This document shows, one piece after another, positions 6,144 to 40,428 of a stretch of DNA of 46,882 nt; position 1 is the first letter of the stretch; every line of letters starts with the position of its first letter. Source of the DNA: a virus. The stretch lies in IMG/VR virus record IMGVR_UViG_3300010885_047981, positions 1 through 46,882 of that record. The stretch is one strand, 5' to 3'. The notes beneath the pieces are model-generated. The model worked only from the letters and a program-made list of their open reading frames with translations, searched no databases and had not been told where the DNA came from. The position numbers and the translations under genes are program-made.

Positions 6144-8261
6144 ATGCCTAAAAATGTAACTACGATACGACAAATGATGAAAACACCTTTTATGGGTGGT
6201 ACTATCAACACTAGTTCTTTTAATGTAGATACAAATGAAATAGAAGTAGTATTTGCTACTGAAAGCCTGGTTATAGAAAAATTGCCTAATGGTGAGCGGT
6301 TTTATGAGCAAGTTGAAATATCTAATGCGGCTGCCGACCTACAAAGGATAAATAACAACGGGGCAGTTTTAGATAACCATCAAGACGAATCAATTACGAG
6401 CCAAATAGGTGTTGTAGTAAGGGCTTGGATAGATGAAGCTACCAAAGAAGCTAAAGCAATACTAAGACTTAGCAAAAGCGATAAATGGAAGGATACGGTA
6501 AAAGATATTTCGGACGGTATCATAAAAAATATATCCTTTCGGTTTGCTAGAAAAAAGATGATTGATACTGGCAATGAAAAGGATGGTATCAGGATTTTAA
6601 AAACAGTTTCTTGGGAAGCACAAGAAGTGAGTTTTGTTACCATCCCTGCTGATTATACTGCCGGTGTAAGAAACAGGACAGAAGAAAACGAAGTAATTAT
6701 TCAAACATTTAATAATAATAACATGCTTACAGAAGCGCAAAAAAAAGCAAGAAAAGAAGCCATTGAAGGTGTTTGTAGAGCTTTGAAGCTAGAGGATAGC
6801 TTTGCTCAAACATTGATTGATGACGAGACTATTACGGAAGAAGTAGCCCGTGGAAAAGCTATTGCAGAAGTAACAAGGATTGCTAATCCTACGCCACCTC
6901 CTGCTAGTACAAAAGCAGAGAGAGAAAGACTTTTAGAAATTACGCAGACTTGCCGCAAGTTTAAACTTGACAGTTTGGTAGATGATAAAGGTGTAAACTT
7001 TATGGATAGCCTTATTGCCGGTACTGAAAGTATTGATGCAGTAAGAAAGTCGATCATTGATAAAGTAGCTGAAATGCAAGATAAAGAATTGAACGGCTTG
7101 GGTGGTCCTGCACCGGTAGTTGTTGGTGACGAAAAGAGAATTGCTGCTCGTGCTTTGGCAAAAGAGCATGCTATCCTGCAAAGGGCTGGTATTCAGTTGA
7201 AAGACGAAGATGGTAAGGATGTGAAGTATGCACCAGATGTGTACAGAGGAATGTCTTTGAAAGATATTGCTTTTGAATGTTTGGTTGAGCGCGGTGTGAA
7301 CCCTCGTACTACAAACCTTCGTGAGTTGAAAAGAATGTGTCTTGACCCTGAATATGCTGTTCGTTCTGCTGGTTCATTGACAACTAGTGATTTCCCTTCC
7401 ATCACAGAAAATGTGTTGAATAAAGTTGCATTGCAACGTTATCAATTGGCGGAAAGAACATGGGAGCCATTGGTAAAGAAACGTACTGCAAAGGATTTTA
7501 AACCATTTAGTAATGTTCGTTTGAATGACGTGTTCATTGACGAGACAAGCGAAATTTTGGAAGGTGGCGAGTACACTCAAATTAAAATGACAGATGGTAA
7601 GGAAAGCTACCGTGTGTATAAATTTGGTAAGAAGTTAATCCTTTCATGGGAAGCGCTTATTAATGATGATTTGAGCATGTTTAATGATGCTGTTGCAAAT
7701 GTTGTTGATGGGTTTACCCAGTTCCACAACAGGGCATTTTACCAAGTGCTTACTTCAGCAACTAGCGTGTTTAAGGGTGCTAACAAAATGAGTGATGGAA
7801 AATATATTTTCCATGCTGATCACAATAACTTGATTGGTACTGGTACCACTATCAACATTGATAGCTTGACTGCCATGAGATTGTTGTTGAGAAGCCAAAC
7901 TTCGCCAAGTGGAAACAAGCTGAACTTGAACCCTAAGTTCTTGATAGTTGGGCCAGCACTTGAAACGCTTGCTGAACAATTTACCTCTAGCAATTATGTT
8001 GCTACAGAGCAAGGCAAAATAAACAAACTTGGTGGTAGCTTAACCCCAATTGTTGATGCAAACATAAGTGGTAACCAATGGTTTTTGTCTGCCACCCCAA
8101 GTGCAATACCAACAATTGAAGTTGCTAACCTTGAAGGTCAAGAGTTGTTTACCGAAAGCCGCTACAGCTTTGATGTAGATGGCATGGAAACAAAAATTCG
8201 TAATACTTATGGTATCAAAGCAATTGATTTCCGTGGTATGGTTAAAAACCCTGGTGCGTAA
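6144..8261 (+). CDS. Fused prohead protease and major capsid protein
   Basis: A 705-residue fusion. Residues 1-180 resemble the HK97/S78 prohead protease, with a likely catalytic set of His79 (in LDNHQD), Ser131 (in NISFRF) and Glu161 (in AQEVSFVTIPA). Residues about 185-330 are a charged helical region of the kind expected of a scaffold or delta domain. From about 400 onward the protein resembles the Mu gpT-type major head subunit (DFPSITENVLNK, then the Trp-rich ERTWEPL). Protease-capsid fusions of this kind are known in Mu-like phages. Self-cleavage would release the mature capsid subunit. No separate scaffold or protease gene is seen, which supports the fusion being the working form. Confidence 0.88.
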   Translation: MPKNVTTIRQMMKTPFMGGTINTSSFNVDTNEIEVVFATESLVIEKLPNGERFYEQVEISNAAADLQRINNNGAVLDNHQDESITSQIGVVVRAWIDEATKEAKAILRLSKSDKWKDTVKDISDGIIKNISFRFARKKMIDTGNEKDGIRILKTVSWEAQEVSFVTIPADYTAGVRNRTEENEVIIQTFNNNNMLTEAQKKARKEAIEGVCRALKLEDSFAQTLIDDETITEEVARGKAIAEVTRIANPTPPPASTKAERERLLEITQTCRKFKLDSLVDDKGVNFMDSLIAGTESIDAVRKSIIDKVAEMQDKELNGLGGPAPVVVGDEKRIAARALAKEHAILQRAGIQLKDEDGKDVKYAPDVYRGMSLKDIAFECLVERGVNPRTTNLRELKRMCLDPEYAVRSAGSLTTSDFPSITENVLNKVALQRYQLAERTWEPLVKKRTAKDFKPFSNVRLNDVFIDETSEILEGGEYTQIKMTDGKESYRVYKFGKKLILSWEALINDDLSMFNDAVANVVDGFTQFHNRAFYQVLTSATSVFKGANKMSDGKYIFHADHNNLIGTGTTINIDSLTAMRLLLRSQTSPSGNKLNLNPKFLIVGPALETLAEQFTSSNYVATEQGKINKLGGSLTPIVDANISGNQWFLSATPSAIPTIEVANLEGQELFTESRYSFDVDGMETKIRNTYGIKAIDFRGMVKNPGA

Positions 8262-30307: not shown

Positions 30308-31015
30308 CTATGGAGGAGGATTGAGCAGTTTTCTCCCTATTAATTCTACCACATCAACCGTAACGGCATTACCCATTAACTTATAGCGTTGTGTGGCTGA
30401 TATTTCTTTTACTGTGCCATTGTAGTTGCCGTGTAAAGTCCAGGTATCGGGAAAACCTTGTAGCCTACAGCATTCAATAGGGGTTAATCTTCTTATACTT
30501 ATACCAGATGCTAGTAGATTATCCTTTGCAACACTGGTTAGTGTATTAGTTGTGCCTTGTGTATTAGGTTCTAACCTTTGCTGCATAAATGCACCTTTGG
30601 TTCTGTCTGAAGGATTATTTGGGTTTCTTCCTCTCTGAGCTACTATTACTGCCTGATTGCTTTGCGTGTCAAGTATTTGTGCCTGTCCGTTCCCAACTCT
30701 GCCACGCCGCGTGGCAGAGTTGGGAACGGACATATTGATAGCATCACCCTCTTTGGCTACTTCAAAACCTTCTTTAGTGGCAGATTTAACAGCAATAGAA
30801 ATACGACCACTCATTGAATCAATCGTTGGGCTTAATCCTTCTGAATCAAACACTCTATTTTGCATATATCGTTGCGCCCCATTGCTTTCCTTGCTTTCGT
30901 TAATCTGTTTTACCTTAATCATATCCCACGAATGTTTTTTAGTTAATGATGCCCCCCCCCCAGTTCTGATGGTTGGCATTTCGTCCTTATCGAATAAACT
31001 TTTATACTCGTTCAT
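30308..31015 (-). CDS. Cytosine-C5 DNA methyltransferase, C-terminal part
   Basis: A 235-residue open frame that holds the target-recognition region and motifs IX-X of a C5 methyltransferase: RRLTPIECCRLQGFPDTW, then ISATQRYKLMGNAVTV. It also has several repeats of a short (S/P/N)T(I/L)-x-n motif that recur in phage Dcm target domains. The ATG at 31015 overlaps the end of the N-terminal part, so it could be a separate subunit, as in split enzymes such as M.AquI. A G10 tract near its start (30952-30961) encodes Gly-Gly-Gly in frame. A 49-base perfect palindrome lies inside (30684-30732). Confidence 0.72.
   Translation of the reverse strand: MNEYKSLFDKDEMPTIRTGGGASLTKKHSWDMIKVKQINESKESNGAQRYMQNRVFDSEGLSPTIDSMSGRISIAVKSATKEGFEVAKEGDAINMSVPNSATRRGRVGNGQAQILDTQSNQAVIVAQRGRNPNNPSDRTKGAFMQQRLEPNTQGTTNTLTSVAKDNLLASGISIRRLTPIECCRLQGFPDTWTLHGNYNGTVKEISATQRYKLMGNAVTVDVVELIGRKLLNPPP
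30684..30732. repeat. 49-base perfect palindrome inside the methyltransferase gene
   Basis: Two 24-base arms are fully complementary around a single central base. They overlay the codons for PNSATRRGRVG, a motif I recall as common in phage C5 methyltransferases. The arms are GC-rich relative to the surroundings. In RNA this would be a very stable hairpin; in DNA, a cruciform candidate. Confidence 0.9.
30952..30961. repeat. G10 tract (third) in the methyltransferase locus
   Basis: Ten C on the plus strand, ten G on the coding strand. It reads in frame as Gly-Gly-Gly (TGGGA context) in the C-terminal part. One base more or less would break that frame. Confidence 0.85.
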
Positions 31016-31191
31016 TATACTTTATTAAGGTTCTTTCGCCGTGAGAATCCATTCCTTTATGATAACTAGCATCTATGCAAGTGCTAATATCCGTGTCTCT
31101 TATTTCGCCGTAATTGTTCACACACGGAGTAAGGTCATACTGCTGTGCATTCCCCCTGAATTGCCCCCTGCCGTTAGTGTGTTCACAATCT

Positions 31192-31201
31192 CCCCCCCCC
31201 C
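31192..31201. repeat. G10 tract (second) in the methyltransferase locus
   Basis: Ten G on the coding strand, encoding DGGGE in the frame that holds motif VIII. With 10 G the reading leads into a plausible target-domain segment (NTLTAGGNSGGMHSSM). Confidence 0.85.
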
Positions 31202-31431
31202 ATCAATTAGAGTATCTGTGGCTTGCTTTGCCCCTTTAACAGACCTGCAATCGTTTTCTGTGATAGGAAATACTTTTGTTCCACTTCCTGTTGTAAGACT
31301 TCCGATAAAGAAGAACCTCTCTCTATTTTGGGGGAGTAGCCAACTTGTATTAAGAAGCTGGACTTCCACGTTGTATTGTGGACCACCTTCACCAGGTATG
31401 GAAAGAAATTTAAGGACTTGGTAGAATGTAT

Positions 31432-31442
31432 CCCCCCCCCCC
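31432..31442. repeat. G11 tract (first) in the methyltransferase locus
   Basis: Eleven G on the coding strand. With 11 the frame runs to a stop 22 bases later; with 10 it would read IGGGDTFYQV and continue to motif VIII. This is the position of the main frame break. Confidence 0.85.
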
Positions 31443-31839
31443 AATCGAGGACAATCCTTTGACATTTTCAGCAATGAAATATTGACACCTACTTTCAGCG
31501 ATGATCCTAACAAGTTCAAAGAATAAACCGCTTCGTGTACCGACTTCAACTCCTTTGCGTTTTCCAGCAATACTAATATCTTGGCAAGGGAATCCTCCAC
31601 AAACAATGATTGTTTCATTTGGGTGCTGCTGTCTGATATTGTGTCCTGAAACATTGAGGACTGAACCGATATACTCTGCATCTGGAAAGTTGTATTTGTA
31701 GTTAGCAATTGCGTGAACGTCTATTTCTGAAAAGTAGCTTTTGATAATATTAAACCCTGCTTGCTCTAAGCCTTTATGAAAGCCGCCTGCACCAGAAAAA
31801 AGGTCTATAAGTATTATATCCTTGGTCATAAACTAATCT

Positions 31840-39675: not shown

Positions 39676-40428
39676 TCACTTCCGTATTTTGATAATAACG
39701 GTTTCTATGTTGGTGCCTGATTCCTTAAATGTTCCTGCACTTACATTAAAAACTTCTGCCCCTTTCATTTCAAGCCATTGCCTGAAATAGCTTTCCTTTT
39801 TGTTGTTTGATATTTGCCAGTGCTTAGAAGCCATAGTAACAATAACCGCCCCTTTCTTTGCTGTAAGATACATTTTATATATGTGGCTTATATCCTGATT
39901 TTTGGCGAAAGGAGGGTTTGCTATAATTCTGTCAAACTTGCCATAAAGGTCATGCTGTGGGTTTATTTCAGTAAGAAAATCATCGCCTAATAATAAAGCC
40001 TTTTCATTACTATTTAAAACCGTTCTGTTTACGTCCATAAGTTCAAAACAATATACGGGCCTCTTTGCTTTTTCTGCAATTACATTGAGCATGGACCCTT
40101 GTCCTGCACTTGGCTCTAATATCATGTAATCATTTTTATCAAGCTCTGCCATTTCAACCATTCTTTCAGCTAAGGGCCTGGGAGTAGGGAAGTATTGAAA
40201 TTCTTTCTGAAGGTTTACTGTTGTGCCGCTTTTTATCTTTTCCAATAGTTCTGTTGGATCACTAGAGAAGACAAAGCCAAATACTTTGCCGCCCTTCCAT
40301 TTGCCGCCTATCAGTTCAAGTTTTTTGGCTGTATCTAAGTATAGCTTTCTGTCAAGTGTAACCCCTGGTAATTTGACTATATTACCCTCTATTGTACAAT
40401 TCTGTAAAACTTCTGTTACTGTATTCAT
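39676..40428 (-). CDS. DNA N6-adenine methyltransferase-like protein
   Basis: A 250-residue protein. The SAM-binding motif EPSAGQG lies at 105-111 and the amine-methylation motif NPPF at 171-174. Residues 38-55 (ELIGGKWKGGKVFGFVF) resemble the Trp-rich module found in the genes at 40447 and 46118. NPPF enzymes methylate adenine or other exocyclic amines. With the C5 methyltransferase locus this makes two phage modification enzymes. The target sequence is unknown. Confidence 0.82.
   Translation of the reverse strand: MNTVTEVLQNCTIEGNIVKLPGVTLDRKLYLDTAKKLELIGGKWKGGKVFGFVFSSDPTELLEKIKSGTTVNLQKEFQYFPTPRPLAERMVEMAELDKNDYMILEPSAGQGSMLNVIAEKAKRPVYCFELMDVNRTVLNSNEKALLLGDDFLTEINPQHDLYGKFDRIIANPPFAKNQDISHIYKMYLTAKKGAVIVTMASKHWQISNNKKESYFRQWLEMKGAEVFNVSAGTFKESGTNIETVIIKIRK

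Follow-up and report, generated by a model that had tools for sequence, protein, structure and literature searches.

A probable split C5-cytosine methyltransferase gene of a phage with candidate poly-G slippage switches

Introduction

In phasevarions (modA/modH and others), slippage at simple repeats shifts the reading frame of bacterial DNA methyltransferase (MTase) genes. To our knowledge, work on phase variation has concerned bacteria almost exclusively. A 2025 review presents one demonstration in a phage, concerning a receptor-binding protein (PMC11868660), and poly-G phase variation of the receptor-binding protein of a Campylobacter phage is reported through that review (Sorensen et al. 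2021, cited in PMC11868660). M.AquI and M.EcoHK31I are natural C5 MTases composed of two polypeptides (PMC3404938). In phages of the Streptococcus thermophilus 5093 group, C5 MTase ORFs lying in different frames overlap, and a similar ORF overlap is on record for a pneumococcal phage and for a streptococcal conjugative transposon (PMC5601072).

Here we describe an MTase gene from a viral record, IMGVR_UViG_3300010885_047981, analysed over its whole length of 46,882 nucleotides (the window). Among the genes of the phage are those for a contractile tail sheath, terminase, portal, integrase and primase. The cellular genomes that contain relatives of this MTase belong mostly to Bacteroidota. A second, different DNA methyltransferase-like gene, matching several PHROG methyltransferase families, is located at 39676-40428.

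Organization of the methyltransferase gene

The gene is encoded on the minus strand and is distributed over several reading frames. ORF A (ORF1; 31410..31829, minus strand; 139 aa) contains motifs I (DLFSGAGG), IV (GGFPCQD) and VI (ENVKG), matches Pfam DNA_methylase (1.8e-31) and ends just past the first poly-G tract. Its frame-1 continuation (31118..31431, minus strand) carries motif VIII (PQNRER), followed by the module TLTAGGNSGGMHSSMTLLRV, and ends at the TGA at 31120-31118. At this position, hereafter break 2 (31118..31121, minus strand), the stop TGA overlaps a GTG (GTGA). ORF B (31002..31121, minus strand; 39 aa) follows in frame 0 with the module NNYGEIRDTDISTCIDASYHKGMDSHGERTLI; the segment between the GTGTGTG repeat and the ATG at 31015 is coding as well, as CIDASYHKGMDSHGERTLI matches L094 in frame. 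At break 3 (31002..31015, minus strand) the stop of ORF B and the start of ORF C overlap by 14 nt, ATGAACGAGTATAA. ORF C (30308..31015, minus strand; 235 aa), constrained in frame 1, comprises the distal variable region and motifs IX-X, and also matches Pfam DNA_methylase (8e-14). The homologous frame therefore runs from frame 0 in ORF1 to frame 1 after the first tract, to frame 0 at the GTGTGTG break and back to frame 1 at 31015.

When joined, the pieces give a 504-aa reading that covers positions 1-329 of TIGR00675 (dcm) at 2.5e-59, and since this match extends over the whole length of the model, we regard the pieces as one C5 MTase. Motifs I, IV (PCQ), VI (ENV), VIII (QNRER), IX and X occur in order across ORF A, its continuation and ORF C, and relatives of the gene align through motifs I to X. 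Judged by its predicted products, the window gene is a C5-cytosine methyltransferase, as originally predicted. Motifs I-VIII lie on one predicted product and the distal variable region with motifs IX-X on the other, which is the M.AquI type of split; a split C5 MTase is also present in Streptococcus phage Javan179.

In the window, no combination of lengths of the three tracts would yield a single full-length protein. In the stretch from tract 2 to tract 3, frame 1 stops at the TGA at 31120-31118, frame 0 at the TAA at 31004-31002, and frame 2 within a few codons.

Two further features of the gene were observed. A 49-bp perfect palindrome (30684..30732, VPNSATRRGRVGNG) is situated inside the ORF C coding sequence; its predicted RNA hairpin has a free energy of -48.5 kcal/mol (z -11.1), and it is missing from relatives, though they keep its peptide. 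In addition, 229 bp at 31603-31831 are 90% identical to L005 (5999-6227), with a near-identical downstream part and sharp divergence beyond; read from this alignment, the methylase gene contains a recombination mosaic here.

Poly-G tracts of the window

The coding strand contains three long poly-G tracts at the positions given by the original prediction. Tract 1 (G11; 31432..31442, minus strand) lies directly after motif VI, tract 2 (G10; 31192..31201, minus strand) shares the frame of the module that ends in LLRV, and tract 3 (G10; 30952..30961, minus strand) is located in TIRTGGGASLTKKHSWD. Apart from these three, the 46,882-base record has no G/C runs of 10 or longer, and a first-order model predicts 0.02 such runs in the window. 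Three were detected in 1.29 Mb of comparison loci (L005-L138), and one each in a 3.7 Mb Dysgonomonas genome and a 3.1 Mb Mesonia genome. The window gene thus contains, beyond chance, simple repeats in coding sequence whose length sets its frame, as is characteristic of contingency genes. The tracts are spaced exactly 240 bp apart, a spacing absent from the relative L346 described below. A scan for G10 pairs about 240 bp apart returned six matches, all unrelated and mostly of low complexity; the exact spacing is probably due to chance.

Frame breaks conserved in a related phage gene

A homology search through the neighbouring replication and capsid genes retrieved no close sister phage. A relative with the same MTase gene, L346 (from a 45-kb contig), was found only by scanning for the tract-3 pattern (poly-G followed by KH.WD codons), which matched four viral loci, with no match in 395 genomes of the Dysgonomonas phylum or in 398 genomes of the phylum of a Clostridia MAG. 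The MTase gene of L346 shows 73% nucleotide identity to that of the window over 831 and 269 nt. Otherwise L346 is a different phage, and the 11.6 kb compared show little further resemblance to the window.

The only G10 runs of L346 are a G10 at the place of tract 2 and a G11 at the place of tract 3; tract 2 is in frame at G10 in the window, as proposed, and tract 3 differs by one G, at a gene identity of only 73%. At the place of tract 1, L346 lacks a tract and keeps an open frame, from which we conclude that the window G11 is one base too long for the frame, in agreement with the original prediction. As assembled, this would truncate A after motif VI and leave the window copy off.

Tract 1 is the only tract that disagrees with the reading frame, and homopolymers are prone to error, so that the G11 might be a sequencing or assembly error in a split gene that is otherwise fixed. 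We consider this quite improbable, because tract length differs at the same place in many independent contigs (see below) and because an error would leave the existence of the tracts unexplained.

Breaks 2 and 3 are common to both phages. The stop of break 2 directly follows MTLLRV at the same codon (TGA in the window, TAA in L346), and the 14-nt stop/start overlap at ORF C recurs in L346 as ATGAAAAGATTTAA and in L344 as ATGAACGAAAATAA. Third-position divergence between the window and L346 exceeds that at the other two positions in the module before break 2, the last of A's frame-1 continuation (0.45 vs 0.14/0.05), in ORF B (0.66 vs 0.17/0.26) and in ORF C (0.51 vs 0.22/0.19), indicating codon-level constraint. 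An exception is the stretch 31430-31205, a mosaic between the window and L346 in which divergence does not favour the MTase frame.

Because both breaks are kept in L346 with purifying selection on either side, we interpret them as part of the gene architecture; on the strength of this comparison they are neither decay nor errors. The original prediction had placed all breaks at simple repeats, to be explained by slippage, error or decay. Removing one GT from the GTGTGTG repeat is not the best reading of break 2, given the retained stop after MTLLRV. The proposal that break 3 arose between TATAA repeats 13 bases apart was rejected, as L346 has the same junction without the TATAA repeat. We also considered re-initiation of B at the GTG; this is weakened by L346, which has GTA there and hence no start codon.

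The three to four frame changes, together with the lack of one long protein at any tract setting, would fit a pseudogene with accumulated frameshifts. However, a shared pseudogene would not diverge with codon constraint on both sides of breaks 2 and 3, and motifs I, IV, VI, VIII, IX and X are all retained; the random inactivating changes that had been named as a sign of decay are not the case in L346. Decay is therefore a very improbable account of the gene.

Tracts in other phage C5 methyltransferases

We scanned IMG/VR for ENV codons followed by G9 within 36 nt and obtained at least 119 loci. Among the matches listed, at least 69 are recognisable C5 MTases, and the gaps between the ENV codons and G9 peak strongly at 17 and 19 nt, the latter being the gap of the window. 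The tract-1 place carries G9-G12 in many phage MTases. In family A, the GGG codons of a Gly-Gly-Gly motif after motif VI can alone yield G9; since this is a protein motif, the presence of a tract is weak evidence, and the argument rests on differences in length. Two pairs are informative in this respect: L195 (G10, closing after 21 codons) and L234 (G9, open), whose flanks are 100% and 98.7% identical, and L172 (G12) and L214 (G11), which are 97.7% identical and one G apart. Tract lengths taken from single contigs could, however, be assembly errors.

In a second family, sampled regardless of tracts, 7 of 80 relatives have a tract of 10 or longer, all in frame, and most relatives of the window gene have no tract. 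In L344 as in L345, the C5 MTase variable region contains two tracts, every one of them out of frame. Based on this distribution, the tracts are a scattered and probably derived feature.

Two observations concern tracts elsewhere. L344 has a further G10 at 8046-8055; it lies within an HNH-like ORF, close to where an overlapping nuclease-like ORF starts. Within 9.5 kb, L062 (contig 2517572100_000004) has six G/C runs, 8 to 16 long, and is thus an unusually tract-rich phage or prophage.

A conserved overlapping reading frame

Due to the odd codon statistics at 31430-31205 between the window and L346, relatives were inspected for a second frame. In the window, a +1-frame ORF of 61 aa (31207..31392, minus strand) contains SLSEVLQQEVEQKYFLSQKTIAGLLKGQ and matches phrog_16143 (3.6e-6). 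Among 36 loci of the family to which the window gene belongs, 32 have an open +1 frame downstream of motif VIII, reading LSDILQEEVSQEYFLSQK or similar, and none has an open +2 frame. Synonymous differences in this stretch number 1130 for the +1 frame, three times the 360 of the MTase frame, with 323 for the +2 frame. The MTase frame keeps the FP of VFP/IFP, a weaker point, as this motif was the criterion for selecting the 25 aligned loci.

In all 80 sampled MTases of family B, which is tract-bearing, the +1 frame remains open past motif VI for 60 codons or more (median 184), with PTP motifs on it in 79, compared with a median of 10 codons for the +2 frame. The synonymous fraction just after the motif VI site is 0.302 for +1, 0.097 for +2 and 0.418 for the MTase frame, and the +1 product matches phrog_1008 (1.6e-17). 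Phage C5 MTases of this kind thus carry a conserved overlapping +1 frame. A broader claim, that the second half of a broad class of phage C5 MTases is dual-coded and that poly-G at its entry joins the N-terminal half to either frame, is possible but on balance doubtful. If true, a switching phage population would obtain from one gene two forms of the enzyme, or else an enzyme together with a decoy or regulator.

All eight out-of-frame tract alleles of family B, among the matches listed, enter the long +1 frame, an indication that slippage may decide which of two conserved C-termini is read. The tracts would then select alternative C-termini for one N-terminal half rather than act as a simple ON/OFF switch, in keeping with the openness and constraint of the +1 frame in family B, its phrog_1008 match and the threefold synonymous excess in the window's own family. 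On the other hand, out-of-frame alleles of family A close quickly, and the +1 product is predicted only and would lose motif VIII. Because the eight alleles are few, with near-duplicates among them, and the window G11 leads to a short dead end instead of the +1 frame, we rank such a selector below a split enzyme with slippage switches and consider it unlikely.

A conserved +1 overlap with a dual-coding signal was recorded at 31205-31300 of the window and in L006-L013, L105-L131, L136, L345 and L346. Separately, HNH-like endonuclease ORFs are nested in another frame of the methylase gene in L005 (6534-7154) and L107 (6064-6618), where the methylase frame stays open for about 200 codons through the nested ORFs.

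Discussion

The best reading of the locus, and in our view a probable one, is a split phage C5 MTase of the M.AquI kind with poly-G slippage switches. The MTase would comprise at least two separate polypeptides, A (motifs I-VIII and the proximal variable region) and C (the distal variable region and motifs IX-X), with the small frame B between them and overlapping both. Tracts in A and C would change length by replication slippage and thereby shift the frame, so that expression or C-terminal make-up would differ between phage genomes. We infer that slippage occurs within one population and that A and C, when both are read, assemble into an active methylase. The most likely benefit would be a population mixed for a methylation mark, which could help against host restriction or serve the lysogen. 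Of the original alternatives, a phase-variable or a broken MTase, the switch gains from tracts that exceed chance and recur with differing lengths, while breaks 2 and 3 are attributable to neither slippage nor damage.

A phage with slippage-switched DNA modification could hedge against host restriction or randomly alter the methylome of its lysogen, and the recurrence of tracts in many phage families provides a list of genes for direct testing. Phase-variable methylases, phage poly-G switching and split C5 MTases are each known; our search of the open-access literature retrieved no report of their combination, of poly-G switched C5 MTases in phages or of phase-variable methylases encoded by phages.

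Compared with the phasevarion MTases, the window gene has in common a repeat whose slippage would shift the MTase frame; those enzymes are mostly type III adenine MTases of bacterial pathogens, whereas the window encodes a C5-cytosine MTase of a phage that is split and carries up to three tracts. The Campylobacter phage, as presented in the review that cites it, likewise has hypermutable poly-G in a phage genome, with a receptor-binding protein as target and a different host group, in contrast to the DNA-modifying enzyme of the window. M.AquI is divided between motif VIII/the proximal variable region and the distal variable region/motifs IX-X, as in the window; no poly-G tracts are described for M.AquI or M.EcoHK31I (PMC3404938), and the window adds frame B and the 14-nt stop/start overlap. 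The 5093-group phages resemble the window in that two methylase-like ORFs occupy the same DNA in different frames, and the nested ORF of phage P0092, at 139 aa, has the length of the phrog_16143 profile that is matched by the window +1 ORF. No tracts are reported for that group (PMC5601072), while the window has one at the entry to the overlapped stretch. The conserved overlapping frame bears on a so far unexplained oddity of the streptococcal phage methylases (PMC5601072).
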